Shown here: piece by piece, positions 47,995 through 64,000 of the stretch
How the letters are laid out: every line of letters begins with the position of its first letter
How positions within the stretch are numbered: the stretch's first letter is position 1
NCBI RefSeq assembly: GCF_002020135.1
Contig: NZ_MPZS01000002.1
Location: 124,001 to 188,000 of the forward strand
Reading direction: 5' to 3'
Source: Thioclava marina
GTDB lineage: Bacteria > Pseudomonadota > Alphaproteobacteria > Rhodobacterales > Rhodobacteraceae
Length of the DNA stretch: 64,000 nucleotides
Notes under the pieces: generated by a model
The model's input: the letters and a program-made list of their open reading frames with translations, nothing else
Database searches by the model: none
Told to the model about the DNA's origin: nothing
Translations under genes and position numbers: made by a program

Positions 47995-48449
47995 ACCCTC
48001 AACTCCCGCAGGCATCCGATCAGGAAGGGGAAGCATCGCGGTGCGGGCATCGGCAAAGATTACTTCGCGTGGGTGCTCCGCACCGCAATCGGTACGGGCT
48101 TGCCCTCCCGTCGAAACAGGCTCTTACCACAACCGAACTCCCGCCGATCGTTTCCTCGCGATGCGCGTTCCAGACGTCCACGACTCCAATTCCCTTGATC
48201 TTTTGCCGACCTGTCACGAGACGCCCCACCACAGCATACGCAAATCTGCGACATGAAATCCGCACGGATCGATTTCCCGGACCCTGAAACGACAGCTTCT
48301 CGTGCACTTGTGGTGGGGGGGGCCTCGGGGCGGGGCTGACCGACCAAACCCGGCGAAACCGTTGGCGGAGGAGGTGTCCGGTCAACCGGGAAATTGGGTC
48401 ACGCATGCGGCAATAAAAACAACAACTTAGGAAAGCCCCGCAGCATTGC
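47995..48449. other. Intergenic region without a recognisable gene
   Basis: About 450 bases between the hydroxylase pseudogene and the restriction operon. No frame has a ribosome binding site or a family signature. Part of it may be eroded mobile DNA. Confidence 0.5.
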
Positions 48450-48485
48450 GTGCAGCAAAATGTGCAGCAAATTGTGCAGCAGATT
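48450..48485. repeat. Three tandem 12-mers (GTGCAGCAAAAT type)
   Basis: GTGCAGCAAAAT, GTGCAGCAAATT and GTGCAGCAGATT follow one another directly, ~40 bases beyond the hsdR stop codon. Confidence 0.7.
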
Positions 48486-48526: not shown

Positions 48527-51490
48527 TCAACCGTTTCGCGCTTGCCTCTGCGCCCGCTTGAAGAAGTGACGTGTCGCCTGCTCGCGCGCGTCCTTGTCGG
48601 TCATGACGATATTCCGCATCTCGTTATCCTGTTGGAACATCTTCACCATCTGCTGAAAGAACGCTTGAGAAAACGCGTTGTATACTACGTCCGCTGGGTT
48701 GTTGCGCATCATCTCGGTCATGTCGTCATCCATGACGTCGCGGGTGACACGTTCGAAGCGCAGAAAGTCCTCCCGCGAGAACTTGGTCCCGTGTCGATCG
48801 TTGAACGCGTCGATGATCTCCGAGAGAGAGCGCTCTTCTTCTTCCGTGTAAGGATTGGCACCAAACTCGGAGATCGGCTGCAGGGTCGTGGTGTCGCCCG
48901 CAGTCAGGGACGCGCTTCCCTCCTCGTCTTTCTGAAGCTTGAAGGCTGCCAGGTTGAGCATGTCGTCCGATACCGTGATATCGGCTGGCACGTTGCGCGA
49001 CGGGAGCAGGCGCGAGAGCCAGGAGCCGTAGGCGTAGAGCTTTTCTAGCCAGGCATCGTTGAGGTTCACGACCTGAGCGACGAAGGCGTAGAAGCGCTGA
49101 AAGCTCCTCAAGAGCTGCCGGAATTCCTCTTTCTGCGCCTCATCCTCGTCGAGCAAAAAGCGTTCGACAGCGAGCCGCACGGTCCCCTCCAGAACAAGAC
49201 GATCCTGTTCGGTCAGGTCACCCTTGAAGAACTGATCGGCAAAACGCTCGATCTCTTCCTTGTTGATGTAGGTCGAATTGGAGATCCGCTGTTCGAGATC
49301 GTAGACCTGATTGAGATCCGTTCGTTCTTCGAGGGCCGTCGCTTCGAAGAAGGGAGCGAAGGCTTCCTTGATGTCCTCCATCGTGTTCTGGAAATCGAGC
49401 ACGAAGGTGCGGTCCTTGCCGGGATAGGTCCGGTTCAAACGCGCGAGGGTCTGCACGGCCTGAAGGCCCGCCAGCTTCTTGTCGACATACATCGCGACCA
49501 GTTTCGGCTGGTCGAAACCAGTCTGATATTTCTCGGCGACCACGAGGACCTGGTAGGCATCCGTGTCGAACTTCTTCGGCAACTCGGTTTCGGCGAAGCC
49601 GTTCGCAGTCGCTTCGGTCCACTCATTCCCATCGACCGTCAGATCGCCGGAGAACGCGACGAGCGCCTTGAGATCGGTATAGCCCTTGCTTGCTATATAG
49701 TCGTTCAGACGCTGCCAATAGCGCAGCGCGTGCTCGCGGCTCTGCGTGACGATCATCGCTTTCGCTTTACCTTCAAGCTCCCGCGCGACGTGGCGGCGGA
49801 AATGCTCGACGATGACCTCGACCTTCTGGTCAATCGCGGTCGGGTGCAACGAGGCATAGCGGGCGACGCGCGCTTGCGCCTTGCGGCCCTTGAAGGCCGG
49901 ATCGTCCTCGATCGTCTTCTCGAGCTGATAATAGGCCTTGTAGGTCATGTAGTTCTGGAGCACGTCCAGAATGAACCCCTCCTCGATCGCCTGCCGCATT
50001 GAGTAGAGGTGGAACGGATGTGGCTTGCCGTCAGATCCGATGCGGCCGAAGCGCTCCAAGGTGACGTTGCGCGGGGTCGCGGTGAAGGCAAGGAACGAGA
50101 TGTTCTTCTGCGGGCCGCGCGCTTTCTGGAATGCCAGAACGAGGTCCTCAATATCCTCGGGGCTGGTGTCATCGCGGGTGAGCGCGTCGGTCATCGCTTG
50201 TGCCGCTTTCCCGGATTGCGATGAGTGCGCCTCGTCGATGATCACCGCGAAGTTCTTGCCGGCCTGTCCCGAAATCGTCGCCAGATGCTCGGTGCCGAAC
50301 TTCTGGATTGTCGTGATGATGATCCGTGCGCCCTTGATGATCGCGTCTTTCAGATCGCGGGACGTGCCGTCGATCTTCTTCACCACGCCTTCAGTCTGCG
50401 CGAACCCGCCAATGGTGTTCTGCAACTGACGGTCGAGCACCAGGCGATCCGTCACGATGATCGCTGTGTCGAAGAGCGGCTGGTCGTTCCCGTCATGCAG
50501 GTTGATGATCTGATGCGCGGTCCAGGCGATCGTGTTCGACTTGCCCGACCCTGCACTGTGCTGGATCAGGTAGTTCTTCCCTGGGCCTTGAGCCTTCGCG
50601 TCTGAGAGCACCTTGCGCACCGCATCGAGCTGCTGGAAGCGCGGGAAGATCAGCACCTCTTTGCCATCACCCCGTTCGAGGTGGATGAAACGGCCGATCA
50701 GATCGAGAAGCACCTCGCGCGAGAAGACGGCCTTACCGTCGGGCAGATCCTTGTAGAGATAGGCGACGCGGTTCTCGCCCGGCACGTCAGGGTTACCGGC
50801 ACCGCCATTGCGCCCGCGATTGAAGGGCAGGAACCGTGTCTTGCCGTTCATCAGCCGCGTCGTCATCGACACATTGTCCTGATCCACCGCGAAATGAACG
50901 ATGGCACCGCGCTTGAAGGTCAGCAGCGGCTCACCCGCAGGCGACCGATCCTGGCGATATTGTCTCTCGGCATGTTTGACGTTTTGACGGGTCAGCAGGT
51001 TCTTCACTTCGAGCGTCGTGACCGGGATGCCGTTGACGAAGGTCACCAGATCAAGGGCGTTCTTGTTCTTCGCCGAATAGGTCACCTGGCGCATCACCGA
51101 GAGGATATTCGCCTCGAAGAGCCGCGTCAGATCCGGGTTCAGGTTCGAGGCGGGCTTGAAGAAGCACAGCGCGAAGCGGATGTTCGGCACCAGCTTGATG
51201 CCCTCGCGCAGCACGACATGGGTCGGGTGCTCCTTCAGCGCCTTGTCGAGACGCTTGAGAACCTCTGCCTCGGCCTGCGCGCTGTAGTGATCCTCCAGCA
51301 CTTTCCAGGCGTCGGGTTGCGTCGCCTTGAGGAAGTGGAACAGCAACGAAGGATCAAGCGCATGGGCGACATCATAATGGGACGCGCAGTTGCGTTCGAT
51401 ATACCCCTGTTCGGAGGTCAGGCAGGAGACGATATGCGCCTCGAAGACTTTCTCTTGGTGGATGTTGGCGGTGGTGTGGGTGTCGGTCAC
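48527..51490 (-). CDS. hsdR: Type I restriction endonuclease subunit R
   Basis: HsdR translocates DNA and cuts it far from the recognition site. The 987-residue protein has the N-terminal PD-(D/E)xK nuclease with Asp147 and the Glu161-Val-Lys163 pair (TLEVKN), then a superfamily 2 helicase: Walker A HSAGSGKSNT (~311-320), DEAH box VIIDEAHSSQSG, FTATP motif III and LVVAEKYQTGFDQP in the second lobe, followed by a helical C-terminus that docks on HsdM. It is last in the operon and overlaps the 115-aa gene by an ATGA. All active-site motifs are intact. Confidence 0.96.
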   Translation of the reverse strand: MTDTHTTANIHQEKVFEAHIVSCLTSEQGYIERNCASHYDVAHALDPSLLFHFLKATQPDAWKVLEDHYSAQAEAEVLKRLDKALKEHPTHVVLREGIKLVPNIRFALCFFKPASNLNPDLTRLFEANILSVMRQVTYSAKNKNALDLVTFVNGIPVTTLEVKNLLTRQNVKHAERQYRQDRSPAGEPLLTFKRGAIVHFAVDQDNVSMTTRLMNGKTRFLPFNRGRNGGAGNPDVPGENRVAYLYKDLPDGKAVFSREVLLDLIGRFIHLERGDGKEVLIFPRFQQLDAVRKVLSDAKAQGPGKNYLIQHSAGSGKSNTIAWTAHQIINLHDGNDQPLFDTAIIVTDRLVLDRQLQNTIGGFAQTEGVVKKIDGTSRDLKDAIIKGARIIITTIQKFGTEHLATISGQAGKNFAVIIDEAHSSQSGKAAQAMTDALTRDDTSPEDIEDLVLAFQKARGPQKNISFLAFTATPRNVTLERFGRIGSDGKPHPFHLYSMRQAIEEGFILDVLQNYMTYKAYYQLEKTIEDDPAFKGRKAQARVARYASLHPTAIDQKVEVIVEHFRRHVARELEGKAKAMIVTQSREHALRYWQRLNDYIASKGYTDLKALVAFSGDLTVDGNEWTEATANGFAETELPKKFDTDAYQVLVVAEKYQTGFDQPKLVAMYVDKKLAGLQAVQTLARLNRTYPGKDRTFVLDFQNTMEDIKEAFAPFFEATALEERTDLNQVYDLEQRISNSTYINKEEIERFADQFFKGDLTEQDRLVLEGTVRLAVERFLLDEDEAQKEEFRQLLRSFQRFYAFVAQVVNLNDAWLEKLYAYGSWLSRLLPSRNVPADITVSDDMLNLAAFKLQKDEEGSASLTAGDTTTLQPISEFGANPYTEEEERSLSEIIDAFNDRHGTKFSREDFLRFERVTRDVMDDDMTEMMRNNPADVVYNAFSQAFFQQMVKMFQQDNEMRNIVMTDKDAREQATRHFFKRAQRQARNG

Positions 51491-51834
51491 AGGTTCCCCA
51501 CCTCGCGTTGAATGTCAGGAAGCGGCGTCGAGTTGTCGAACGAGAAACGCCATGCGCCTTGAATGCTGTGGGAGCGCAGATCGATCTGTTGGGTCTTGTA
51601 GTTATAGGTAAAGACGTAGCGCGATCCTTGAAGCGTGACCCAACACGTCCGGGCAAGATTGCCGTTTCGCTCGTAGACCTCGACCTTGTCGAATTTGAGA
51701 TTCAGGCGTTGCCGCACCTCGTCGGAGAGCGGTTGTATGACGTGTTCGACATTTCCGCCGTGATGGCGTGCCTCTCCGATAACCTTAGCGATGAAGGCAT
51801 CAATCTCCTGGTTGGTCGTCAGTTTTCGTGCCAT
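51487..51834 (-). CDS. Small protein between hsdS and hsdR (115 aa)
   Basis: The product begins MARKLTTNQEIDAFIAKVI and contains DKVEVYERNGNLARTCWVTL, GSRYVFTYNYKTQQIDLR and WRFSFDNSTPLPDIQ. Similar small proteins, sometimes named integron cassette proteins, occur in type I restriction operons. The sequence looks like a compact alpha/beta fold, without known catalytic motifs. It overlaps both hsdS and hsdR by a few bases, so it is part of the operon and may modulate restriction, which is inference. Confidence 0.75.
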   Translation of the reverse strand: MARKLTTNQEIDAFIAKVIGEARHHGGNVEHVIQPLSDEVRQRLNLKFDKVEVYERNGNLARTCWVTLQGSRYVFTYNYKTQQIDLRSHSIQGAWRFSFDNSTPLPDIQREVGNL

Positions 51835-53135
51835 TACGCTTGCATCTCCTCTTGAATGGCTTCGAGCTGGCGGTCGGGGATGCCGGATTTGGCGTAGGCC
51901 TGAACGTCGATCTGACCCGTGACAGCAGCGGTGATCAGGGCGGATCGGTATTCTTTGAGACGGTCGACGGAGGCGTTGACTGCGTTGGTCGTTTCTGAAA
52001 CGTGAACCTTTTCCAATTCGATTTCTGCCACGACCTTCGCCTGCTTTTCCAGTGATGGAAGGGGCACAGGCAGGGTGCGAACCGTTTCTTGACTTATATT
52101 TTGCATGGATGAACTTGCGCCGTTGGCGCGCGAAGAATAATGAAGTCGCGCTTTCTTGCTTCTTAGTGCCAGCAGCGCAAACGAAGGTGAAAGCAACCTT
52201 TCATCAAGTCTCAGGCGATATAGTTTGTCGCAAAGCATCAAGCGACTTTCGGCATTTTTGACGATTGCCGCGCTGCCAACTAATTCGGGAGTGTTTGCTC
52301 TCGACATAAGGAGATCGCCATCACCGACTTCTAGTTCAGGACGGGGGGGCATGTCTTTTGGGAGCGTCTTATGTTCGGCTGCAGTGAATGACCAACCGTT
52401 TACGCAACCTACTTTGAGAACTCCCCATTCATCGCCTTCTTTCGGGCGAGTTTCGCAGTCAGGACTCCACCCTTGTTCGATATTGATCAATGCACGGCGG
52501 AACGGCACTGCCTTCGTTTCGTCGATGTAGACTGACTTCTCTAGTTTGGACTGGAGTTTCTCCCCCAGCAACGCCACCAAGCGCTGCTTTTTCGCGATCA
52601 GCAGGTCTATTCTTGCGGTCTCATGGTCTAGAAAGTCGGCGATCTGGCGTTGGGTCGCAAGGTCGGGGCGATACACCCAGTCGTTCGGGAAATCGGCAAA
52701 CTTCACAGACTGACGAACGCCGCCACCAAGAGAGTAGTAATGTTTTGCTAGATCAAGCGCGAGCAGCGAGTAGAACCAGAAGCGCGGATCGTTGTCGCGC
52801 TGAACTTCAACCGCGTCATATGCCGAGGTAATAATGCCTCGTTGTGTCACGAGACCCTGCCGCAGACTGCGTTTGTCGTTTTGCAGATCAGTCAGGCGCA
52901 GGACGATATTGCCCGGTTCGACGATCTGATACCCCTCGAAGTTCTCAGGCAGGAGACCGTCAGCGGTATCGATATCCTTCTGAATGATACGCCCGTAACT
53001 GAGCGACAGCAGGTTGTCTTCCTTCATCCCGGCATTCTTGTGCCCGCGACGAACGCGGAACACCTGATGCAATTTGTCCAACTGCCAGTCATCCGGTTTG
53101 GGTGCTGCGTGAACGCGTTCTTGGAGTGTGATCAC
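51834..53135 (-). CDS. hsdS: Type I restriction-modification specificity subunit S
   Basis: HsdS chooses the DNA target. The 433 residues show two target recognition domains, each followed by a conserved coiled-coil: QRQIADFLDHETARIDLLI near the middle and LEKQAKVVAEIELEK with the tail VDRLKEYRSALITAAVTGQIDV. The first domain (residues ~15-150) and second (~215-350) are unlike each other, so the site is bipartite and asymmetric. GC is lower in the second domain than in hsdM, which fits domain exchange. The start overlaps the hsdM stop. Confidence 0.95.
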   Translation of the reverse strand: MITLQERVHAAPKPDDWQLDKLHQVFRVRRGHKNAGMKEDNLLSLSYGRIIQKDIDTADGLLPENFEGYQIVEPGNIVLRLTDLQNDKRSLRQGLVTQRGIITSAYDAVEVQRDNDPRFWFYSLLALDLAKHYYSLGGGVRQSVKFADFPNDWVYRPDLATQRQIADFLDHETARIDLLIAKKQRLVALLGEKLQSKLEKSVYIDETKAVPFRRALINIEQGWSPDCETRPKEGDEWGVLKVGCVNGWSFTAAEHKTLPKDMPPRPELEVGDGDLLMSRANTPELVGSAAIVKNAESRLMLCDKLYRLRLDERLLSPSFALLALRSKKARLHYSSRANGASSSMQNISQETVRTLPVPLPSLEKQAKVVAEIELEKVHVSETTNAVNASVDRLKEYRSALITAAVTGQIDVQAYAKSGIPDRQLEAIQEEMQA

Positions 53136-55153
53136 TCAATCACCTCCTGCAACAGACCTGCTATCTCTGCTTCCAGAGCCTTCAGCTCGGCGTCGATTTC
53201 CTCGAGCGGGCGGGGCGGCACGTATTTGTAGAAGTAGCGATTGAAGTTAATCTCATACCCTACGCGCCCGACGCCGCCATCCTGCGCGTCGGTGTAGCTC
53301 TCGTCCACCCAGGCATCCGGCACAAAGGGTAGAACCTCGCGCTGCACATAGGCGCGCCAGTCCTCGTTCAGCGGGACGAGTTCGTGATCGCGCAGATCGG
53401 TATCGGGTTCGGGGTTGCCGTTCTTGTCTGTGCAGACCTCGGCATCCTCGTCACGCTCGGACAGCGCCGACAAAACCGCCTTCTTCACCGGCGCGCCCAA
53501 TTTCACGCCAGCGGCCCTCAGAGCGCCGCTGAGCGCCTTCTCGAACTTATTGCGGGACAGCCAGCGCTCACCGACCGGAAGCCCCTCCAGCGCCTCCAGA
53601 ACCCGCGCCTGCTCATCCTCGTCGAGCTTGGCGAAGGGCTTGGCCTCGCGCAGCGCCTCCAGCCCCTCCGGCGTGACCGAAAAGGCCAGTTTGAGCGGCC
53701 GCTCGACCCGGATTTCGCGATAGCCGAAATCGGTGGTCTCGAAGATCTTCGACACGTCAGCCCAGTCCGAATTGCCGTTGAGCATGTCGTGGTAGATCCG
53801 CGCGATCTCTTCGGTGGCTTCCTGCGGGATCTCGCGCCGTTTCGAGCCGAGCGACTTGCGCATCGATTTCCAAAACCGCTCGCCGCTCGCATCGATCAAC
53901 TGCACCTTGCCGCGCCGGTCCTTGTCCTTGCGGTTGGTGAGCAGCCAGACATAGGTCTGGATCCCGGTGTTGTAGAAGAGGTCGGTCGGCAGCGCGATGA
54001 TCGCCTCGACCCAGTCGTTTTCCAGCATCCAGCGCCGGATCTCGCTCTCACCTGAGCCAGCCCCGCCGGTAAAGAGGGGCGAACCGTTCATGACGATCCC
54101 GATGCGCGAGCCCTGCTCGTCATTGCGCATCTTGGAAATCATGTGCTGAAGGAACAGGAGCTGCCCGTCCGAGATCCGGGGCAGGCCCGCGCCGAAGCGA
54201 CCTTCCATACCGAGATCTGCCGCCTCGTCCTTGATCGGGTCTGCGTATTTCTTCCAGTCGACCCCATAGGGCGGATTGGAGAGCATGTAGTGGAAGCGTT
54301 TGCCCTGGTGCGCGTCCTGGGTCAGCGTGTTGCCGAAAGCGATGTTCTCGGGATTGTGCCCGGTCACCAGCATGTCGGACTTACAGATCGCGAAGGATTC
54401 CGGGTTCAGCTCCTGGCCGAACAGCTCGACCCGGATGCGGTCATTGAGATCCTTCATCTCCATTTCGGCGATCGAGAGCATCCCGCCGGTGCCGGCCGCT
54501 GGATCATAGACCTGCCGGATGACGCCACTGCCGGTCAGGGCTTCTTTGTCGTTGACCAGGAGAAGCGAGACGATTAGGCGGATCACCTCGCGCGGGGTGT
54601 AGTGCTCACCGGCGGTTTCGTTGGAGATCTCCGAGAAGCGACGGATCAGGTCTTCGAAGAGATAGCCCATCTCGATGTTGGAGATGGCGTCCGGATGCAG
54701 GTCGATCTGCGTGAAGCGATCGAAGACCTGGTAGAGCAGCCCCGCATCGTTGAGACGCTTGAGCTGATCGGTGAACAGGAACTTGTCGAGGAAGATGTCC
54801 CGGACATTGCCCGAGAACTTGGTGATGTAATCGATCAGGTTCTTGTGGATGTCCTTCGCGTCCTGCCCCTTGAGCGAGGCGAAGGTGAAGCGGGACAGGT
54901 TGTAGAGCCGGATGTTCTGGCCGACCGCTCCGGAGAGAAGCGTGTCGCGCGCGTCATCGTCCATGTCCGCAGGGAGGCTCTCGGCCATGGCGAGCACATC
55001 AGGCTTGCTCGCCTCTAGAATGCAGTCCAGACGGCGCAGAACCACGAAGGGCAGCACCACCTTTCCATATTCGGATTGCTTGAAGTCGCCGCGAAGAAGT
55101 TCTGCAATTGACCAGACGAAACTGCTTAAGCTCTTGATGTCGTTGTTGCTCAT
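53132..55153 (-). CDS. hsdM: Type I restriction-modification methyltransferase subunit M
   Basis: HsdM methylates adenine at sites chosen by HsdS. The 673 residues carry the AdoMet motif DPAAGTGGML, the catalytic NPPY in LSNPPYGVDW and the N-terminal helical domain (SFVWSIAELLRGDFKQSEYGK). The C-terminal ~180 residues are longer than in EcoKI-type HsdM. The ATG at 55153 is chosen since MSNNDIKSLSSFVW matches family starts. First gene of the operon. Confidence 0.96.
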   Translation of the reverse strand: MSNNDIKSLSSFVWSIAELLRGDFKQSEYGKVVLPFVVLRRLDCILEASKPDVLAMAESLPADMDDDARDTLLSGAVGQNIRLYNLSRFTFASLKGQDAKDIHKNLIDYITKFSGNVRDIFLDKFLFTDQLKRLNDAGLLYQVFDRFTQIDLHPDAISNIEMGYLFEDLIRRFSEISNETAGEHYTPREVIRLIVSLLLVNDKEALTGSGVIRQVYDPAAGTGGMLSIAEMEMKDLNDRIRVELFGQELNPESFAICKSDMLVTGHNPENIAFGNTLTQDAHQGKRFHYMLSNPPYGVDWKKYADPIKDEAADLGMEGRFGAGLPRISDGQLLFLQHMISKMRNDEQGSRIGIVMNGSPLFTGGAGSGESEIRRWMLENDWVEAIIALPTDLFYNTGIQTYVWLLTNRKDKDRRGKVQLIDASGERFWKSMRKSLGSKRREIPQEATEEIARIYHDMLNGNSDWADVSKIFETTDFGYREIRVERPLKLAFSVTPEGLEALREAKPFAKLDEDEQARVLEALEGLPVGERWLSRNKFEKALSGALRAAGVKLGAPVKKAVLSALSERDEDAEVCTDKNGNPEPDTDLRDHELVPLNEDWRAYVQREVLPFVPDAWVDESYTDAQDGGVGRVGYEINFNRYFYKYVPPRPLEEIDAELKALEAEIAGLLQEVIE

Positions 55154-55252
55154 GGATCCCTCGAAATTCGCGGACAGGATGGGAGGAGGCATCCTAGGGT
55201 GCAAGAACAATTCGGACGAGCAGACACTGCAGTCCACCCCAAGCGTTGCCCC

Positions 55253-56698
55253 CTATTCGCATGTGACGAAGTGGGTAACGGATGTCAGCATCTTGCCCAT
55301 CTGCTCTGGAGCTATCTGCTCGCCTGCGTCGCTCGTCTGAGGCGTCACGCCGTTCTGGTAGAGAAACAGCTTCGCTATCTCTCCCCGGATGGCGAAGTTC
55401 ACATTCTGCGGGATATCCCCGATCGCGTCCTGCACAAGTTTCGCGTCTAGCTTCGACACGACGACCCCGACGACATGGCCGTGTGCATCGACGACCGGAC
55501 CACCCGAGTTCCCTGGCTGAACCGGCGCAGAGATCTGCATACGACTTCCGTCACCTCCAAGCCCTTTAATGCTCGTAACTGAGCCGCGCGTGACATTCAG
55601 GCCGCTCAGCAAGCCAGCGAGCGGATATCCTGCGATCGTGACATCTGCATTCAAGCTAGCAGGCTTGGCCGCGAAGGTAACACTCTTCAGGCCGCTGACG
55701 TTCTCGACCTGCACCAATGCGAGATCGAAATCCTCATCCTTTCCAATCAACTTTGCAGGCGAGCCGTCAACGGTGATCTTACGACAATCCCCTGCGACGT
55801 GATTGTTGGTCAGAATCTTTCCGTCGGGAGCGACTGCAAAGCCCGTGCCAGTCCCGCCCTCGTCTTCTCCAGGGGGAGCGGGAGGCTTTTCACCAACAGT
55901 GCCCTCGCCAACTCGCGGCTTGGGGCTGAGATCCTTGGCCTCATCGAGAAACGCCATAACCCCAGTGTAAAGCTCGCCATACTCCGGAAGATCCAGTTCA
56001 GTGCCTCGATGGGGGAGAATTGACGCCGTAACCAACGCCAGACGACCGGCATCGCGATCTTGGGCGGACACAAGAATCGTCGACCACTCTCCAACACGTA
56101 TGCGATCAGAGCGCACGTAGAGTGTTTTGCCTCCAGATACGCGAGCTGACGTGATCAGCAGATGATCCTTGCGCACTGTGTAGAGGTTGGAAACTGAGGT
56201 ATCGAGCGCGTAGCGGTGCATAGCAACTGCTCGGCCGATATCGCCTGACGTCAAAGATATCGACAACGTCGAAGCGCTGTCGTCAAAATCGAGAGTGAGA
56301 CCGTTCGCGCTGACATGCGAAGACATAGTCTTCTGTGGCGACAGGAACGATAAATCGGCAAAATCGAAGTAGTAGCGTGACCAGCCACCATCCGAGATCG
56401 TCTTGATCTCATCGACCACCAAAGCCACCGGCGCGAGGTTGGGCAACTCGCCTGCGTTAAAGTCGATGCCACTCTTGCGAGCGTAGGCCTGGAGAGCGCT
56501 CGCACTTCCAGCCCCCCATTTGCCATCGATCATGCCCAAGTAAGAACCGTCTAGCGCGAGAGCCGCTTGAAGAAACCGGACTTCCTGGGAGGTCAGATCA
56601 CTAGCGCGGAAAGGTTCAACGAGCTCGCTTCTCGTCCAAGCACTCGCCGAACAGACCCCTAAGAATATCAGAAGACCAGCACTTAAAAGTGCGCGCAT
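55253..56698 (-). CDS. Secreted peptidoglycan-binding trypsin-like serine protease
   Basis: The 481-residue precursor has a signal peptide (LLSAGLLIFLGVCSASAW), a peptidoglycan-binding domain (~35-80, LALDGSYLGMIDGKWGAGSASALQAYARKSG), a beta-rich middle with no known match, a Pro/Glu linker, and a trypsin-fold protease with an intact triad His300 (LTNNHVAG), Asp325 (DFDLALV) and Ser398 (PGNSGGPVV). It acts in the periplasm. Its GC is lower than the core genes. It resembles the inactive protein at 35.5 kb in layout but is catalytically complete. The gene starts ~100 bases from hsdM. Confidence 0.88.
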   Translation of the reverse strand: MRALLSAGLLIFLGVCSASAWTRSELVEPFRASDLTSQEVRFLQAALALDGSYLGMIDGKWGAGSASALQAYARKSGIDFNAGELPNLAPVALVVDEIKTISDGGWSRYYFDFADLSFLSPQKTMSSHVSANGLTLDFDDSASTLSISLTSGDIGRAVAMHRYALDTSVSNLYTVRKDHLLITSARVSGGKTLYVRSDRIRVGEWSTILVSAQDRDAGRLALVTASILPHRGTELDLPEYGELYTGVMAFLDEAKDLSPKPRVGEGTVGEKPPAPPGEDEGGTGTGFAVAPDGKILTNNHVAGDCRKITVDGSPAKLIGKDEDFDLALVQVENVSGLKSVTFAAKPASLNADVTIAGYPLAGLLSGLNVTRGSVTSIKGLGGDGSRMQISAPVQPGNSGGPVVDAHGHVVGVVVSKLDAKLVQDAIGDIPQNVNFAIRGEIAKLFLYQNGVTPQTSDAGEQIAPEQMGKMLTSVTHFVTCE

Positions 56699-56904
56699 CG
56701 AATATCTCCACCAATCCTAGATAAGAATGGCTCAGCGGCTGTGTTCGGTCAAGAAAACCGATCATTCAGGCCTCCGGGGCAAAATCATCAAACGCGGAGA
56801 TGCGCACAGCCAATCCGTAGAAATTGCGGCTGATATGCCGTCGCCGGGTTGTTTAATTCGCGATCTTGGCGCTAATTCGTCGAGCAGCCAAGTTTGGAGG
56901 GGTA

Positions 56905-57354
56905 ATGTTCAAGCGAATTTCAAAAGTATTCTTGATTGCCACAACGGTCGCATTGTCAGGTTGCGCCTCACAGAGCATGTTGCCCCCAAGCAGCTCAGAG
57001 GCGGATTTTTCAGCACCTGAGGGGAAGGTGGGCTGGTCTTCCTATCGAGAAACCGCGCTCTTCCGCAATGCGAGCGAAGAACACGTCTATGACGCTGCGA
57101 AGTTGGCTCTAGGTGAAACTGGCTTTGCCCTCAGATCGGCAGACAGGTCGGCTCGACGCGTCACCGGTGAACATGGCATCACCCTCCACGACTGGAATGT
57201 GATCGCTGGCATCTACTACAAACCGACACCGGCTGGCATCCATGTCCTCGTGCAGGTCGAAGGTTCGAAAGACACTGGCTTCAGCGGCGATGTGACCGGA
57301 GACGGTTGGACCGGGAAAATCATGAGTAGGATGCGTCAGCATATTGGACGCTGA
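56905..57354 (+). CDS. Small lipoprotein, 149 aa
   Basis: A lipoprotein signal ends in the lipobox LSGC (MFKRISKVFLIATTVALSGCASQ). The ATG at 56905 has GGAGGGG four bases upstream. The rest (VYDAAKLALGETGFALRSADRSARRVTGEHG then HDWNVIAGIYYKPTPAGIHVLVQVEGSKD) resembles the DUF3568/SoxB-like type of alpha-beta lipoproteins only loosely, so no family is assigned. It is divergent from the protease and converges on the DUF927 gene. Confidence 0.75.
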   Translation: MFKRISKVFLIATTVALSGCASQSMLPPSSSEADFSAPEGKVGWSSYRETALFRNASEEHVYDAAKLALGETGFALRSADRSARRVTGEHGITLHDWNVIAGIYYKPTPAGIHVLVQVEGSKDTGFSGDVTGDGWTGKIMSRMRQHIGR

Positions 57355-57431
57355 ACACCCGCCACGGGCAATCCTCGCTTCGAATGGGGAGGGCAAAAGA
57401 GCCCTCCCACGTTTTCGCGAAGATCGTGTCC

Positions 57432-59417
57432 TCAGACTTCCTTAAAAGACATCACGCGGCTCACGTCGACCGTGTAGAGGCGCGGCCGACCGGGGATAGC
57501 GCGCGGAGCCTTACGCTGGAGGCGCCCCTCTTCACCGGGCACCAAGAGATGAAGCTCGACCATGCGCTTAGCCGCAAGCGCCCCTGCTTCGGCCGGGAAG
57601 AGCTGTGTCCAGGTTTGCGAGGTCAGATAGGCTTTTGTCATGTCGCGCCATCCCTCAGGAACGACGTTTGACTGCGGCCCATCGACAAGCGGAAGGGTTG
57701 CGAGACTCGCCGTCAAATATTTCTGCAAGGCCTTCACGTAGTCAGCGCCATCTTCCAGCACGTCGACAAAGCGCCGATCATACCAGTCGAGGAATGCGCG
57801 CGTGCACGCACTAGTCGCGTCACCTTGCGCCCAACCGGTGAGTTGAAGGAGCGTCGCAAGCTCACCCGCGGTAGCAATTGCCGCGAACCTCTTAGCGACG
57901 CGAGACACTTGTCCATCGATCGTTAAAGGAAGCGACGATACCATGCGCTCAGCATTTGAATTGACCAGCCTGCCCAGCTTGTCGCAATCGCGACCGACGC
58001 CACGAGAAATGATCTGGCGAACAAACTCCCGACCGGCGCAACCGAATTGCTCGCGAACCGCTTTCTGAACGATCCCAGAAAACTCCGCGCCATCATCTGC
58101 ACCGTGGAGAACATCAAATACTCCATATGCACAGCAATCAGCTTCGATATCGACCAAACGCACTTCGTGACCTGCCATAGCTGTGAGGCGCGCCTCTGCG
58201 AGCTTCTCCTCGATGCTGATTTCTCCCGACGAGATTAACGCCAAGCGCCAACGAGCCTGCTGAGCCAGCTCAACATCTTTGGACATCCGGGTTTTGCCCA
58301 CACCGTTTGCAAGCATGTAAATCGCGTCATAGAGGCTACGGGCCGGGATCTCAGCAAGCTCATCGAGCGCCAACAGCATGTCGTTGCGGCGCGCAGCAAT
58401 CGCCTCAAGGCCGTTCTTGGTTGCGTGCCACTGGGTAATGAGACTCTCCCCACCCCAGACCGATGCAGCCAGCTTGAGCATAGTCGTCTTTCCTGAAGAG
58501 GACTGCCCCCGAAAATGCAGACCGCCACCGCCGAGCCCAAGCAGCGCAAGAAACGGACCAGCGAAGCTGAGCGAGACCGCCAAGATCATCAAATGGTTGC
58601 CGGCGCAGAGTGAAGCCACGTCGCGCTTCCAGCCTTCCACCGAACCTGCAGTGATCGTAGCGGAACCGTCCAAACCCACCGGGAGGATCCTAGTTTTGCC
58701 TATGGCAGAGTCGCCGATGGCGAATGCCGAATAGTTTTCATCCACCCAACCCGCCCGTGTCACCGTCCGAAGCCGCTCTTCGGGCTTCCAGGTCTTGAGC
58801 AGCTCAATGACCTGCTCCTTGGCCTTCTTTTCGCGCCCCAGCTCGAGACCACTATCGACCAGAGTTGCGATCACCATTTGAGGCTTCGATTGCAGATCGG
58901 AATTAAGAACCGAAATCTTATGCCAGTCGCCATCAGCATTTTTCACTGCAACGACCTTACCCCACCCCCTGCCTTCTCCATTCGAAAAACTAGCCTCGAC
59001 CCGGATCGGCGAGCAAACGAAGATCGGGCCCGCATCGCTCTCGGCCATGTAGAAAAGGCCATCCTCTTCAAGGTTGAAGCCCGGCGGAATTGAAGCGTTC
59101 GACGAAGCGACCGGTGCAGCCACATCTCCACCTGCGACATCGAAAGGTGCTTTGGTTACCTGCTTAGTTGCTCCCGCTTTTGCTGCGTGAAGCTCGATGA
59201 CCTTCTGGGGCCCCTCCTTGGCACCTTCCTCTACGCCAACCGGACGAGGTTGGAGTTCGATGGGAGGCCGAACATCTGCTTCCGCTGCGAGCTCATCCAA
59301 ATTTGCGCGGTCATCAGTTTCGGGCAACAGAGCCCCCTGCCCTTCGCACTCAATGCCCAAAGGCAATGCTGAGATAGAGGCACCGGGAATAGCGTTTTCT
59401 GAGATGTGGTCTTTCAT
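57432..59417 (-). CDS. DUF927-domain P-loop ATPase (helicase-like)
   Basis: The 661-residue protein has a ~110-residue disordered acidic N-terminus, then a DUF927 domain: KISVLNSDLQSKPQ, LRTVTRAGWVDENYSAFAIGD, and Walker A GQSSSGKTTML at ~304-311 with Walker B MLLALDELAE at ~347-356 and the sensor-like LISSGEISIEEKL. DUF927 proteins are helicase/primase-associated ATPases found in mobile elements and plasmids. The start at 59417 has AAGGA upstream. Its partner is probably the HUH-type protein encoded next on the same strand. Confidence 0.85.
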   Translation of the reverse strand: MKDHISENAIPGASISALPLGIECEGQGALLPETDDRANLDELAAEADVRPPIELQPRPVGVEEGAKEGPQKVIELHAAKAGATKQVTKAPFDVAGGDVAAPVASSNASIPPGFNLEEDGLFYMAESDAGPIFVCSPIRVEASFSNGEGRGWGKVVAVKNADGDWHKISVLNSDLQSKPQMVIATLVDSGLELGREKKAKEQVIELLKTWKPEERLRTVTRAGWVDENYSAFAIGDSAIGKTRILPVGLDGSATITAGSVEGWKRDVASLCAGNHLMILAVSLSFAGPFLALLGLGGGGLHFRGQSSSGKTTMLKLAASVWGGESLITQWHATKNGLEAIAARRNDMLLALDELAEIPARSLYDAIYMLANGVGKTRMSKDVELAQQARWRLALISSGEISIEEKLAEARLTAMAGHEVRLVDIEADCCAYGVFDVLHGADDGAEFSGIVQKAVREQFGCAGREFVRQIISRGVGRDCDKLGRLVNSNAERMVSSLPLTIDGQVSRVAKRFAAIATAGELATLLQLTGWAQGDATSACTRAFLDWYDRRFVDVLEDGADYVKALQKYLTASLATLPLVDGPQSNVVPEGWRDMTKAYLTSQTWTQLFPAEAGALAAKRMVELHLLVPGEEGRLQRKAPRAIPGRPRLYTVDVSRVMSFKEV

Positions 59418-59528
59418 ATTTTTCCTTACTGCTCGCTTCAGAGCATGACGGGGTCGTTCACAGCCTGAAGGCCATGCCGGACGGTTCAAAAATGAGGGAA
59501 TTCTGGTCGGACACCGTGGCCCGGTGGA

Positions 59529-60143
59529 TCAGCTAACGGCGTTGACCGGAGCAGTAGAAAGGTTCGCCGGATGCTGTCCGAGACGCCTGGACTCGTAATC
59601 TGCGCGGACCAGTTGCGTCATCGCTCTACTCGTCCACCAAAGTTGGTTTTCGCTCATCAGGGCGAGCAAACGGGCGGTGAAGGCGAGATCTTTCGAGAGA
59701 TACCCTTTCCAACCGTTGCCTTCGTAAACGAGCTTTGACTTGAACTGGCGAGCACCGCGACGACCACCGACATAGCCGACTGCCCGACGCATGGCTTCAG
59801 CAACCGATTTTCTTGGGATGCTGCCATCGATGTATATCCCATGGAGGTGAAGCCGATCGGTATCCCTAGTAGCCTCCAGGACGAAGGTCGCCGGAAGCTG
59901 GCGGAGATCCTTTGAATTGAGCTGTGCGTTAAACCTCTTGCTGACTTCACGCATCGGCTGCTGCTTTCGCTTCAAGAGAGCCTCGAAATCCGGCGCGAGG
60001 TTCAGCGTGATTGCTAAGCCTCTGTTGAACTGAGCGAAACGGAAAATCTCCCTCCGACGCTCTTCCGAACTCAGCTTCTTCCAAGGGCGTAGGACTGGGG
60101 AACGAACAGAACTGATAACTGCTGTGTGACGCTTCGGTGGCAT
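59529..60143 (-). CDS. Putative HUH endonuclease / rolling-circle replication initiator
   Basis: The 204-residue protein shows three ordered motifs of HUH nucleases: motif I LAITLN (43-48), motif II HLHG with His99 and His101 in DRLHLHGIYID, and motif III YLSKD with Tyr148 and Lys151 in WKGYLSKDLAF. This matches the YxxK single-tyrosine Rep type. HUH enzymes nick one DNA strand and stay linked to the 5' end. The N-terminal and C-terminal parts are basic and unlike known Reps. No ATPase domain is fused; the DUF927 ATPase downstream may supply it. Confidence 0.6.
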   Translation of the reverse strand: MPPKRHTAVISSVRSPVLRPWKKLSSEERRREIFRFAQFNRGLAITLNLAPDFEALLKRKQQPMREVSKRFNAQLNSKDLRQLPATFVLEATRDTDRLHLHGIYIDGSIPRKSVAEAMRRAVGYVGGRRGARQFKSKLVYEGNGWKGYLSKDLAFTARLLALMSENQLWWTSRAMTQLVRADYESRRLGQHPANLSTAPVNAVS

Positions 60144-60451
60144 GTGTCTTCTCTATGGTCTGGGGTGTGGGTTGTTGGAGCCGATAGTTTCGGTCGCTTG
60201 GTTGACAGTGATTGAGAACGATGAGCACGCCATACGCTGTCGCTACTACGCTACTACTAGACAACGATTGGGCACCCTCAACGAAGCCCCATAAATGCAA
60301 GGGACTTCAGGCGGTTTCGTGCATTAAGCGCATGGACATTATTCCCCGCCCTGTCGCGCATGCGATCAGGTCGGAAGCTGGCTCTGTCCTAGGGTTTGGT
60401 GGGCCGAGCTTTCGGTCAGCGGCTCCTTCGTCCCTAGTGCCATCTTAGACC

Positions 60452-60523
60452 GTGGGACCGTGGGACCGTAGGACCGTGGGACCGTGGGACCGTGGGACCG
60501 TGGGACCGTGGGACCGTGGGACC
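60452..60523. repeat. Nine tandem copies of the octamer GTGGGACC
   Basis: Nine direct 8-bp units run without gaps; the third copy has one substitution (GTAGGACC). A non-multiple-of-three unit excludes a coding role. It lies in a 404-base gap (60144-60547) between the HUH gene and the next gene upstream; the rest of the gap shows no gene. Confidence 0.9.
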
Positions 60524-60547
60524 GAATAACTCGGACCATTAGCAGCC

Positions 60548-61084
60548 TCAAGCTTTCCAAGTCGGAAAACTCAGCCTCAGTTGCTTGTCGAACTCATCGA
60601 GCAGCTTTCTCAACCGGGCCGCTTCTTCAAACGCGCGCTTGCGGGCATCTGGATCGCTAAGGTCAGAAGCCTCAATCTCACCAATCCGCGCTTCGATCTC
60701 CGACTTCTTGTAGTCCCGAATTTGGATTGCCAAATCTCTGGCCGCCTCGATCAAGCAACCGACAGTAACTTCAGCACGGCCGAGAGATGTCCCCTTCGAT
60801 GAGCCGAAGGGATTGCTGTGGCCACCCCCCTCTGAAGGACTTTCAAGCGTATCGAGCGTCACAGCTTCAGGACCGGAGTCATCTTCAAGCAGTGGGGGCG
60901 AAATTCCACAAAGCTCGAGCGATTGCGCAAAGGATGAACCAACCTGCTCATCCACGGGAAAGAACTCGTAGAATGGCTTCTGAAACAAGTCGCTTGGCGA
61001 TGACGGCTTCTTCAGATCCTCCTGTTTCTTCGCCTTCTGGCGTTCGCGGTGAAGCCGCACCTTCTCAGCATTCGTTAAGGCCAT
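60548..61084 (-). CDS. Small accessory protein with ALTNAEK-type N-terminus, 178 aa
   Basis: The protein begins MALTNAEKVRLHRERQKAKK, a basic segment shared by many small proteins of mobile elements, and ends in a coiled coil (EIEARIGEIEAS, then KRAFEEAARLRKLLDEF). The ATG at 61084 has AGGAGA upstream. The middle is acidic and probably disordered. It may bind DNA or act as a replication accessory protein; no function is known. Confidence 0.7.
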   Translation of the reverse strand: MALTNAEKVRLHRERQKAKKQEDLKKPSSPSDLFQKPFYEFFPVDEQVGSSFAQSLELCGISPPLLEDDSGPEAVTLDTLESPSEGGGHSNPFGSSKGTSLGRAEVTVGCLIEAARDLAIQIRDYKKSEIEARIGEIEASDLSDPDARKRAFEEAARLRKLLDEFDKQLRLSFPTWKA

Positions 61085-61160
61085 GACGATTCTCCTACCC
61101 AACAAGGTTACGGTTACACAAAAACCGACATCTGGCGCAATAGGAAAAATGCACGATCCG

Positions 61161-61436
61161 TCAATCGGCCGAAGAATTCCGTGTCCGGACAATCGCTCTG
61201 AGCCTCTCGCACTCGTCTTTGGCTTTAGCGAGGTCACTGCGGAGCCGAACATTTTCGTCGAGCAAATCGCGTTTTGTGGGATGAAGAAGCCATTGGACGA
61301 AGTTGTTCCTGACCGCCCTCTCGTCACCGTGGTCTCGATCAAACTGCCACGAGACGTATTTGGCCTGCAGCATCAAGACGCCGCAAAACGCGAGTGCGAT
61401 CACTGGGGCAACAAACTGGTAGATTTCCATCGACAT
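61161..61436 (-). CDS. Small membrane protein with coiled-coil tail, 91 aa
   Basis: One membrane span (FVAPVIALAFCGVLMLQA) is followed by a basic linker (HPTKRDLLDENVRLRSD) and a heptad-like coiled coil (LAKAKDECERLRAIV). The ATG at 61436 has AAGGAG nine bases upstream; a second ATG is two codons later. Lower GC than the core genome. Function unknown. It lies in the same strand order as the HUH and DUF927 genes. Confidence 0.55.
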   Translation of the reverse strand: MSMEIYQFVAPVIALAFCGVLMLQAKYVSWQFDRDHGDERAVRNNFVQWLLHPTKRDLLDENVRLRSDLAKAKDECERLRAIVRTRNSSAD

Positions 61437-61567
61437 CCGGCCTTGCTCCTTGATCAGGATCAGTGTGCTTAGGAGTTCAGCATGGAAGTCGCGACCTGGC
61501 AACATAGGACTGCGCCGCCGCTAGCCGGCTTCAAAAAGGTTAGCCCCCCGGCCGAGCATGCCCCTTC

Positions 61568-61613
61568 GTGAGGTAGCTAACTAGCTCGTAAGCTAGATGG
61601 CTATCTAGCTCAC
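61568..61613. repeat. Overlapping, mutually exclusive CTAG-rich hairpins
   Basis: CTAGCT/AGCTAG (61581-61596, loop CGTA) and AGCTAGAT/ATCTAGCT (61591-61610, loop GGCT) are both perfect, and share AGCTAG, so only one can form at a time. The outer ends GTGAG and CTCAC (61568-61572, 61609-61613) can also pair. Such cruciform DNA is typical of origins and nick sites. Confidence 0.7.
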
Positions 61614-62044
61614 GACCCAGTCAACATATCAAGGCGGAGGACCGGGCCGTTTAGTTGCTTCGGAACAGGCACGCCCGGCGCAGCAGATACTCCGGGTATA
61701 CGATACCGCCTCGACTTGCGTCGCATGTCAGCCGTCTGTTGCTCAGAACTCACTTCGTCTAAGTAACGCCTTGGAAGATCACCCAGGACATCCCGAACTT
61801 GTAGCCACCCGTGACACTTCCCGAGCATCAACACGCATGTGCCAGAGAGAACGCCGTGGATCGAGCGGCACTTCCCCATGAAATTCGGCCGCGTCGGTTG
61901 CTCCATCCAAGTCGTTCGAGCTCGAAATATGCGAATTTCACAAGCAGCGAGCAACGCTCCGTTCGATTGCCGACCAGACTATTTCGATCCGCTTCACTAT
62001 GGTTGGAGGCGAAAAATCGAATTCCAAGCCCATTTTTGTCAACT
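61614..62044. other. AT-rich non-coding stretch
   Basis: About 430 bases with lower GC than the chromosome. A minus-strand frame (61610-61906) is open but has no ribosome binding site and no family match. I see no gene here. Confidence 0.45.
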
Positions 62045-62260
62045 TAACGTAAACCCAATCAGGAAATGTCTAGGTATTATTGGTCGAATTCGGCAACTAA
62101 GGGTTAACATAGAGGCGCCATCGAAGCGCGAGCTCTTCCAAAACGTAAAGCGAATTGAGCGTTTTTGCCTTCTTTTCGCCAGCTGAACTTTACGTTTTTT
62201 GGCTCTAGCTTTACGTTTTCTTTCCGATTGAAGCTGTCAGGTTAAGTGCACTTTACGCAT
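62045..62260. repeat. Iteron-like array of TTTACG-based repeats
   Basis: CTTTACGTTTT stands at 62188-62198, GCTTTACGTTTT at 62208-62219 and CTTTACGCAT at 62251-62260; the C residues of CTTTACG are 21 and then 42 bases apart. The inverse copy AAAACGTAAAGC is at 62140-62151, and a weaker TAACGTAAA at 62045-62053. The spacing is two and four helical turns. Repeats like this bind a replication initiator or repressor. Confidence 0.6.
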
Positions 62261-62656
62261 GCGAGCCGATCGAAACGCAAACTACAGAGCGATTTCGCTC
62301 CGTCATCCCTCACGAGACACAAGAGCTCTGATTTGCTGTGACCCCCGATAATTCCTCCAGTTGATGCTAGAGTCCGACCCAACAGTGCACCGCTCCCCAA
62401 GGTTGGATCACCGGAAGCTGACCCTGAAGAACCGCCCCCTGTTCGAGAACCCCTACCTTCCCGGTGCCCTAGTAAACGAGCCAAGCCCTCCGTTCCAGAT
62501 CAGCCCCTCGTGTCCCAAACCATCTGACGACGGACATCTCGGGCTAAGGGACGGAGTTCTCTAAACCACTGCTCCGTGGACATGACATTATCGCTGCCGA
62601 GAACGGAAATAGTCGCCTGTCCCATCATTGGGCAGGGCCGCCCTTTCAAAAGCGAA
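62261..62656. other. Intergenic region with short inverted termini and no gene
   Basis: The ~400 bases hold no convincing gene. GTTCTCTAAA at 62556-62565 is repeated in inverse as TTTTAGAGAAC at 62774-62784, with the 62657-62680 hairpin between, like a small non-autonomous element. Confidence 0.35.
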
Positions 62657-62680
62657 GCGGCAGGAGTTTCCTCCTGCCGC
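62657..62680 (-). terminator. Strong hairpin downstream of the cold-shock cluster
   Basis: GCGGCAGGAG and CTCCTGCCGC form a perfect 10-bp stem with loop TTTC. On the minus strand TTCGCTTTT follows, which fits a terminator for the transcript from the csp gene. Confidence 0.6.
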
Positions 62681-62786
62681 TCCACCTCCCGGCAAGTCGT
62701 GTGGCGAGCGTCAGCCGGTTCGCTTGGAACCTCGCGCCGCTCAGCCTTCTTGCCGGGACCCCCACACCCCTGATTTTAGAGAACGA

Positions 62787-62948
62787 TTATTCCTGAACGC
62801 CGCGCACCAAGGGGCCACGCTCGTCCGATATCTTGTCGTCGGACAGACTGCGGAAGAAGTGGTGCCAAGCGAGGGCGGCATGGCCCTTATGCGTCGCAAG
62901 GTCATTCGTCTGGGGCGTTTTGCCCGAAGGCACTTTTTCAAAAGCCAT
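62787..62948 (-). CDS. Small hypothetical protein, 53 aa
   Basis: A short frame begins MAFEKVPSGKTPQTNDLATH with GGAGGG six bases before its ATG, and ends at TAA after 53 codons. It contains AALAWHHFFRSLSDDKI and a charged C-terminus. No family is known. It comes third in the same-strand run csp, 72-aa gene, 53-aa gene. Confidence 0.5.
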   Translation of the reverse strand: MAFEKVPSGKTPQTNDLATHKGHAALAWHHFFRSLSDDKISDERGPLVRGVQE

Positions 62949-63014
62949 CTTCGGCCCTCCATGTTATTCCCGGGAGACGCCCGGGAAATTCTGTTGGATG
63001 ACCGAATTTTCCGG

Positions 63015-63233
63015 TCAACTTCGCGGTTTCGTCCTGCGAGACGGTGGCTTCAGGTCGTGATCGCCCTCATCCCGCTCCAGTCGCGCCGCGCGCAAAGTCG
63101 CGGTCAGATCCGCTCTTTTTTCAGCTTCCGCCTCTCGGATGATGCGCACTGCGGCATCCGTCTTGTCCTGAGCCGTCCCCGGTTTCGGGGCAAGTTCGCG
63201 GAAGAAGCCGTTCAACTTGTCTTTGCGGGGCAT
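63015..63233 (-). CDS. Small basic protein downstream of csp, 72 aa
   Basis: The product starts MPRKDKLNGFFRELAPKPG and is helical and highly charged (DAAVRIIREAEAEKRADLTA, TLRAARLERDEGD). The ATG has GGGAGG seven bases upstream. It is 56 bases after the csp gene and probably in the same transcript. Function unknown; it could be an RNA- or DNA-binding peptide. Confidence 0.55.
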   Translation of the reverse strand: MPRKDKLNGFFRELAPKPGTAQDKTDAAVRIIREAEAEKRADLTATLRAARLERDEGDHDLKPPSRRTKPRS

Positions 63234-63289
63234 GTGCCCTCCCTGTTCGCGGGATCCGGCCCGATGGACCGGATCCGGAACCGATCCGA

Positions 63290-63496
63290 TCAGGCGAGTG
63301 CCAGATCGCAGGCGGACTCGCGTCCGTCGCGGCCGGTCTCGATCTCGTAAGTCACGGCCTGCCCGTCATTGAGCTGCGAGAGGCCCGCGCGCTCAAGGGC
63401 CGAAATATGGACGAAGATATCCCGTCCGCCGGTCTTCGCCTCGATGAAGCCGAAGCCTTTGGTCTGGTTGAACCATTTCACGGTGCCATTGGCCAT
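63290..63496 (-). CDS. Cold-shock protein, CspA family
   Basis: The 68-residue protein is a single cold-shock domain that melts RNA structure. RNP1 KGFGFIEA and RNP2 DIFVHISALE are intact, preceded by GTVKWFNQTKGF. The ATG at 63496 has AGGAGA six bases upstream. The ~200-base leader upstream (63497-63693) could act as a thermosensor, as known for csp mRNAs, but I see no clear structure in it. Confidence 0.93.
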   Translation of the reverse strand: MANGTVKWFNQTKGFGFIEAKTGGRDIFVHISALERAGLSQLNDGQAVTYEIETGRDGRESACDLALA

Positions 63497-63693
63497 CGTG
63501 ATGTCTCCTATGATAAATGCTGCCCGCAAAACGCGACAGCCCGGCTCAGTCAATTCGAAAAGGCAGACTGAAGCCGACAAAGGAGACAGGTTGCAGAAGG
63601 GAATTACGTTGCCCGCTCTCACTACGCCGGTTCGGCGAAAATAGCAAAGGAAATAAGTAGCGTCCGGTTTTGCGCGATTTCGGCTGAGGGGGT

Positions 63694-64000
63694 TCAGAGG
63701 ATCTGATCCGACCAGACTTCGAACCCCTCGAGGACATTCGTTCCGAAGGAATGGATCAGGGGAACGTCGGCCGCATCGCGGCCCTGAGCCACGAGAATGC
63801 GCCCGATGCGCGGGGTGTTGTTGCGCGGATCGAAGACCCACCAGCGCCCCTCCAGCCAGACCTCGATCCAGGCCGCGAAGTCCCCTGGCGGATAGGGCGG
63901 CGGTTCACCGATATCGCCAAGGTAGCCTGTGCAATAGCGGGCGGGGATGTTCATGCATCGGCAGAAGGCGATCGCCAGATGGGCATAGTCGCGGCAAACG
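63694..64000 (-). CDS. Transglutaminase-like protease-fold protein (5' end missing)
   Basis: The frame stays open to the right edge. Its visible C-terminal part begins VCRDYAHLAIAFCRCMNIPARYC, where VCRDYAHL carries the nucleophilic Cys of the transglutaminase core, and continues with the later conserved WIEVWLEGRWWVFDPRNNTP, which holds the catalytic Asp. Family members in bacteria are often predicted proteases or cross-linking enzymes. The first part of the protein lies outside the window. Confidence 0.85.
   Translation of the reverse strand, partial: VCRDYAHLAIAFCRCMNIPARYCTGYLGDIGEPPPYPPGDFAAWIEVWLEGRWWVFDPRNNTPRIGRILVAQGRDAADVPLIHSFGTNVLEGFEVWSDQIL

Follow-up and report, generated by a model that had tools for sequence, protein, structure and literature searches.

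The DNA analyzed here is a 64,000-nucleotide stretch of the Thioclava marina genome (the window; G000:C2:124001-188000, from an assembly, G000, of 3.65 Mb in five contigs), in which two adjacent minus-strand genes encode a HUH protein of Rep type and an AAA+ protein of the DUF927 family (Table 1). The HUH stop codon lies 39 bp upstream of the called TTG start of the DUF927 gene. A third minus-strand gene, orf178, precedes the pair, and an octamer array, a hairpin and iteron-like TTTACG sites are all found upstream of the HUH and DUF927 genes. An initial annotation of the window had described a 204-amino-acid protein with ITLN, HLHG and YLSKD motifs in order, a DUF927 ATPase beside it, and an octamer array, phased TTTACG repeats and a hairpin cluster upstream of these same-strand genes; all are present as placed. 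It took 57432-62260 to be an integrated replicon without an integrase, situated near a restriction operon. A mobile element is indeed present, but that span is only the middle of a 25,354-bp element (48363-73716 in window numbering), the right part of which lies beyond the window end. The type I restriction operon is inside the attachment repeats, and a tyrosine integrase is encoded at 72264-73541, past the sequence then read. From these features, the locus is almost certainly a mobile element integrated at tRNA-Ser(UGA), with direct-repeat ends and type I restriction-modification cargo.

Table 1 Features of the element (window numbering).
Feature	Position	Strand	Remarks
attL	48363..48378	.	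16-bp direct repeat TGGCGGAGGAGGTGTC; partner attR 73701-73716, beyond the window
Triple GTGCAGCA, 12-bp spacing	48450..48481	+	Partner at 73578-73609, next to the integrase gene
hsdR, type I restriction subunit (cargo)	48527..51490	-	
hsdS, type I specificity subunit (cargo)	51834..53135	-	
hsdM, type I methyltransferase (cargo)	53132..55237	-	
Trypsin-like serine protease (cargo)	55253..56698	-	PF13365, E 1.5e-24
Small protein, lipoprotein-like start (by eye)	56866..57354	+	No Pfam match
DUF927 AAA+ protein	57432..59489	-	685 amino acids, TTG start; related to the helicases Cch and SaPI Rep
HUH protein of Rep type	59529..60143	-	204 amino acids
Octamer array, 9.6 copies of GACCGTGG	60448..60524	.	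Shorter in G014
orf178, conserved	60548..61084	-	ATG at 61084; end of the gene 404 bp upstream of HUH
orf114	61161..61505	-	98% identical in G014
Conserved non-coding block, candidate origin	61506..61645	.	138/140 positions identical in G014
Hairpin	61560..61625	.	Inside the conserved block; G014 lacks one arm base
TTTACG sites, iteron-like	62042..62257	.	Three direct, two inverted
Probable insertion-sequence scar	62337..62411	.	By eye
4.8-kb segment 62412-67230, window part	62412..64000	.	97.6% identical to G015; inside the attachment repeats

To define the ends, the contig was read past the window end and 102 kb in all were searched for end repeats. The 16-mer TGGCGGAGGAGGTGTC has two sites only in these 102 kb, 48363 and 73701. 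The tRNA-Ser(UGA) gene (85906-85995) has the first 14 bases of this 16-mer at its 3' end, and the 14-mer is found at the same two sites and in the tRNA itself. The triple GTGCAGCA, likely to represent integrase arm sites, is located ~90 bp inside each repeat (the left triple lies 87 bp from the start of its repeat, and 92 bp separate the end of the right triple from the other repeat). With up to two mismatches it occurs in 3 of 16 congeneric genomes including our own, and a reversed control pattern in 0 of 16. Next to the right-hand triple lies the integrase gene, whose product matches PF00589 with 32.5 bits (cut-off 27.1). The guanine-plus-cytosine content is 65% at 1-46700 and 57% at 48363-62336. 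In the congener G001, a segment matching window positions 34419-42458 (91%) is followed by 7 bp and then by the tRNA gene and the right flank (88%). Since the left flank there abuts tRNA-Ser, the G001 integration site is unoccupied, and G000 therefore contains 43.4 kb extra. An integrase, direct-repeat ends and an unoccupied site in a relative, the hallmarks of a tRNA-integrated element, are thus all found.

The HUH protein contains ITLN at residues 45-48, HLHG at 99-102 and YLSKD at 148-152, the order of the HUH Rep superfamily (motif I, HUH motif, catalytic Tyr). In an alignment of eight sequences, the motif I Asn, HxHG and GWxxY-x-x-K are conserved save for the motif I letter. HxHG and the Tyr are invariant in this alignment and in one of nine sequences, in which the motif I Asn is also invariant; the relative at locus L073 has Arg instead of Lys after the catalytic Tyr. 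An AlphaFold model calculated from the nine sequences (predicted local distance difference test (pLDDT) 84.5, predicted template modeling score 0.77) was compared with known and predicted structures using Foldseek. Ranks 1-30 against the PDB were all adeno-associated virus (AAV) Rep nuclease domains, with E-values of 1.2e-3 to 2.0e-2 and template modeling scores by query length of 0.29-0.39; PII and other ferredoxin-like proteins, RAYT transposase, parvovirus NS1 domains and pMV158 RepB ranked below them. Against BFVD, there were 114 matches at E <= 1e-3 (best 1.2e-5), and the five that were named among the 50 matches listed were all replication proteins, two of them microvirus initiators. The predicted model resembles AAV and microvirus Rep nucleases at modest scores, and suggests a HUH fold at modest PDB E-values (best 1.2e-3). 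The earlier proposal of a Rep-type HUH protein with a separate helicase gene is supported. At the sequence level, PF23343 (REP_ORF2-G2P) was detected in seven of nine family members at E <= 1 (best 4.9e-7). With the nine-sequence alignment as a profile, no match was obtained among PDB sequences, nor did the window protein match PF01446 (Rep_1).

The neighboring protein belongs to the DUF927 family (PF06048, E 6.1e-65, 220 bits against a cut-off of 22.6) and has the Walker A sequence GQSSSGKTT. It matched the PDB entries 8tch ('Pathogenicity island protein', E 3.9e-15) and 5dgk ('Active helicase', E 2.9e-10), the latter of which we take to be Cch. The NCBIfam Cch1 model was matched with an E-value of 6.2e-15 and 54.7 bits, far under its cut-off of 700. 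Among 390 genomes of the order, 37 have DUF927 at E <= 1e-20; a peptide-pattern search of genome and viral contigs with the window protein returned no match. In the sections available of PMC5862659, DUF927 is viewed as a helicase family of mobile elements, with helicase activity shown for one member. The partners described for the DUF927 helicases of the staphylococcal cassette chromosome (SCCmec) and Staphylococcus aureus pathogenicity islands (SaPIs) are primases or polymerases, according to parts of PMC7581432 and PMC10061031.

We then asked how closely the two genes are associated. A DUF927 tree was calculated from 30 proteins, comprising the window protein, four relatives from this work, 13 long-flank loci and 12 loci that have ~1.5 kb of flank; broken, weaker or unfetched DUF927 places were excluded. 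The window protein falls into a clade (100/100) with those of Gemmobacter fulvus, Rhabdonatronobacter sediminivivens, G273 and G143. A HUH gene is present in the fetched region of four of these five members (not G273), versus none of the other 13 loci with long flanks (Fisher p 0.0016, without regard to kinship). No HUH gene was seen in the ~1.5 kb of the 12 short-flank loci, too short a flank to count. The gene order HUH-DUF927, for which the initial annotation had suggested a neighborhood search, was found in three genomes (the window, R. sediminivivens and G143); in G. fulvus the two genes are 4 kb apart. The HUH tree groups the window with R. sediminivivens and G143 (100/99), and G010 with G. 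fulvus (100/99). The rest is mostly open, amounting to 6 of 11 inner branches, and we therefore make no claim on the frequency of gene movement. In G273 (L050), a type I system with an hsdR 89% identical to that of the window adjoins a same-clade DUF927 gene (47%) without HUH; cargo and replication genes therefore seem to be reshuffled. Relatives of orf178 adjoin HUH in R. sediminivivens and in the viral contig L071; its own structure model (pLDDT 60) was too poor to be used. The pair is not described in the portions of the open-licence literature searched, which include PMC12324425 and PMC6563490.

To place the HUH family more broadly, we searched genome, plasmid and virus collections. Matches came from 2 of 61 relatives, 6 of 394 genomes at the family level and 2 of 385 at the class level, our own genome being counted each time, and in 2 of 72,556 plasmid records and 0 of 50,697 phage records. 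Conservation at one fixed chromosomal locus, which had been named as evidence against mobility, is not what the relatives show: the gene is in only these 2 of 61, and the G001 site is unoccupied. IMG/VR yielded no relatives with the window protein alone or a three-row alignment, and five with an eight-row alignment, on contigs that span 15-27 kb. Counting a locus under several identifiers once, and excluding a weak class-level relative (L019, E 5.1e-5), there are 14 distinct HUH loci. Eight of them are phage-like. Seven of these carry terminase and capsid genes related to the phage genes on a Paracoccus marcusii plasmid, and the eighth (L016), at a contig end, has only a tape-measure-like relative. 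HUH relatives in L017, L065, L067, L069, L070, L071 and L073 lie near the terminase and tail-type genes of small capsid-encoding elements. The six other loci are accompanied by a type I restriction-modification system (window), type I-D CRISPR genes (R. sediminivivens contig 43; Cas10d, Cas7d and Cas5d models at L064 7888-14308), a type I restriction-modification system and HEC-05 (G143), a type IIG-like enzyme (G010), a methyltransferase and the BPTD_3080 restriction enzyme by RefSeq name (G. fulvus p6), and a weak type III match (Nitratireductor, E 3e-7). A small helix-turn-helix protein like the one encoded on the integrase side (52-72% identity) is found in four of the other five non-phage loci, the exception being G143. 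It is not HUH-specific, because 6 of 13 HUH-free DUF927 loci have it, and may mark a wider group of elements. It was seen near DUF927 without HUH in L052, L053, L056, L057, L058 and L062.

Comparison with known replicons places the element between several types. G. fulvus p6 (NZ_CP076367) and R. sediminivivens contig 43 share the HUH gene, DUF927, the small helix-turn-helix protein (68%) and defense cargo with it, but they have a RepA and ParA plasmid backbone (annotated for p6, by eye for contig 43) and no tRNA-integrase arrangement. The P. marcusii plasmid NZ_CP157016 and similar phage-like elements have a HUH relative (30%) together with terminase, portal and capsid genes. In the window's element, by contrast, no tblastn match to such genes was obtained at E <= 1e-5 in 48001-74000 with one reference set, the P. 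marcusii phage proteins. Microvirus- or inovirus-type Rep proteins (PF23343) and the AAV Rep nuclease domain are similar in HUH motifs and predicted fold. They differ in that the window protein has no PF23343 match, is encoded on an integrated element and has its helicase as a separate gene, of another type than the superfamily 3 domain of AAV. RepW plasmids of Rhodobacterales also have a rolling-circle type Rep in the same order, but this is PF01446, which the window protein does not match, and their sizes are given as 2.2-6.8 kb in the part of PMC9025767 consulted.

The non-coding region upstream of the genes contains a candidate origin. TTTACG occurs five times on the two strands of 61900-62300, versus a mean of 0.36 in dinucleotide shuffles, none of 2000 of which reached five. 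The direct copies at 62189, 62210 and 62252 are spaced 21 and 42 bp apart. Some 7-mer reaches at least four copies in 109 of 1000 shuffles of this region, in which the observed top count is four; as judged from sequence, the strength of the repeat signal is in exact 10-11-mers and their conservation in G014. The hairpin has z-scores of -3.89 and -4.53 on the two strands, with 1 of 200 and 0 of 200 shuffles folding equally well, and of only -1.15 in a 146-nucleotide context (26 of 200 shuffles). Folding of the TTTACG stretch is unremarkable (z -0.14). G014 has kept the backbone at the same tRNA, with 60490-62336 at 92.4% and 70684-73714 at 96.3% (the latter comprising the helix-turn-helix gene, orf173, the integrase gene and the right triple) and different genes between. 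The conservation figures for block and sites come from this single comparison, G000 versus G014. The block 61506-61645 differs at 2 of 140 positions, versus 88 of 655 for the other non-coding positions of 61646-62300 (p 3e-6), and for the five TTTACG sites there is 1 difference in 56 positions, versus 36 in 214 in their surroundings (p 0.002). Of the non-coding DNA, hairpin block and TTTACG sites are thus conserved best. One G014 difference deletes a hairpin-arm base and another alters a TTTACG. An IS21-like insertion (named by eye) adjoins the octamer array in G014.

Taken as a whole, we consider it reasonably probable that this is an integrative element whose excised circle is replicated by the two-gene HUH/DUF927 system. 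The integrase would excise the element as a circle. The HUH protein, through Tyr148, would nick one strand, most likely in the hairpin block 61506-61645, and remain on the 5' end. The DUF927 helicase (Cch-like, MCM-type), perhaps recruited at the TTTACG sites, would unwind the strand for the host polymerase, and the HUH protein would rejoin the displaced strand. We infer that the step of replication by HUH protein plus helicase probably holds. As HUH relatives occur in capsid-encoding elements, phage packaging is a reasonable guess for spread between cells.

Several observations weigh against this account. HUH occurs without DUF927 in 10 of the 14 loci, and DUF927 also occurs without HUH. The pairing is not strictly one lineage, because the G. 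fulvus HUH groups with that of G010 rather than that of the window, whilst its DUF927 groups with that of the window. For the fold, Foldseek gave no PDB match at E <= 1e-3, with PII proteins among the weaker matches, and the window HUH protein itself matches no Pfam family, PF23343 included. G014 has the block and sites but no HUH gene, and no DUF927 gene in the fetched stretch, so block and sites may be conserved for another purpose, or their conservation may be older than the loss. The block also abuts orf114, whose coding DNA is 98.8% identical in G014, and a recombined tract could therefore explain its conservation. Upstream of the module in loci outside G014, no repeats like those of the window were found. 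Both complete HUH plasmids (G. fulvus p6 and P. marcusii) also have an annotated conventional initiator. This copy of the element, with scars and insertion sequences inside, may be decaying. Finally, excision, nicking in the hairpin block, helicase loading, rolling-circle copying and the route between cells are inferred from sequence.

The alternative that survives best, though we regard it as unlikely, is that DUF927 alone is the initiator, binding the TTTACG iterons like a SaPI Rep and opening the origin. The HUH protein would then serve another purpose, for example a later change to rolling-circle copying or the supply of strands for packaging or transfer, which is likewise unlikely. As described in the text available from PMC7581432, Cch includes DUF927 and is a relative of SaPIBov1 Rep, both on integrated islands, and the SaPIBov1 Rep group binds iterons. 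DUF927 without HUH is common (37 of 390 genomes have DUF927, and 0 of 13 long-flank loci have HUH), and the TTTACG sites are conserved in G014. However, SaPI origins consist of iterons directly downstream of rep (PMC7581432, same sections), whereas the 77 bp after the window's DUF927 gene hold no repeat by eye. The TTTACG sites are instead ~2.5 kb upstream of DUF927, the helicase adjoins a HUH gene, and G014 has the sites but no DUF927 in the fetched stretch. The arrangement is thus not that of a SaPI-type replicon.

It is improbable that the HUH protein is a mobilization relaxase and that a conjugative helper carries the element. HUH enzymes include relaxases, but the motifs here follow the order of Rep proteins (Asn, HUH, Tyr) and not that of relaxases, and the closest folds are Rep nucleases. 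Both HUH plasmids are typed non-mobilizable in PLSDB, and no relaxase match was found among the element proteins scanned, which are only part of the open reading frames (ORFs). In its favor, a DUF927 gene is conserved in Vibrio islands mobilized by IncC plasmids, yet dispensable for mobilization, as reported in the consulted part of PMC7449626. That HUH and DUF927 themselves form a defense system like the other cargo is highly improbable: all six non-phage-like HUH loci have restriction or CRISPR genes nearby, but the other 8 of 14 are phage-like, neither HUH, DUF927 nor orf178 has a PADLOC match at E <= 1e-3, and structurally solved DUF927 relatives are mobile-element proteins.

Further features were noted in and around the element. 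The protease encoded at 55253-56698 is similar to the protease portion of PADLOC RT-Protease_XI models (E 1e-16). Long exact direct repeats between 40-58 kb and 60-64 kb were looked for as element ends and none was found, because attR lies beyond the window. The edge at 62336/62412 was dropped as an element end, since it resembles the scar of an insertion sequence within the element; 62386-62419 recurs adjoining transposase-like sequence in G008, and less exactly in G013. The G015 copy of the segment from 62412 onward (L106 617-15320) adjoins a stress-gene cluster that includes, by eye, a small heat-shock protein, FtsH, Clp, thioredoxin and a KefB-like transporter. A 62-bp stretch at 62475-62536 has copies of 82-95% identity on other contigs in several congeners. 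To the right, a further integrase gene, whose product has an arm-binding domain, is found at 73765-75183; 73717-85905 (L004 11717-20000, L005 1-3905) is therefore probably another element, in tandem with the first at the same tRNA-Ser. To the left, 42459-48362 is a further insert, not at this site in G001, with a large glycine-rich ORF (42857-46600), of which a relative lies on another contig of G001, and a monooxygenase-like gene that by eye is seemingly broken. In R. sediminivivens contig 43, which looks plasmid-like, a periodic repeat stretch at L110 5600-7000 resembles a CRISPR array by eye. No end overlap was seen for this contig or for L016, and its coverage tag of 1020 is uninformative without the values of other contigs.

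The replication pair is plausible and unusual, and does not amount to a new category. More tentatively, an unnamed HUH nickase family and a Cch/MCM-like helicase could form a two-gene module, a split counterpart of AAV Rep, on so far undescribed defense-carrying elements of Rhodobacterales. The nickase family might, with the same reserve, be shared with capsid-encoding phage-like elements, its hosts being integrative elements and plasmids with restriction or CRISPR genes. The element offers defined ends and a 140-bp candidate origin that are directly testable. If the proposed pairing is true, a HUH nickase partner would be a different way to start the copying of islands of the SCCmec and SaPI kind, and a gene family of capsid-encoding elements would be tied to islands with restriction and CRISPR cargo.

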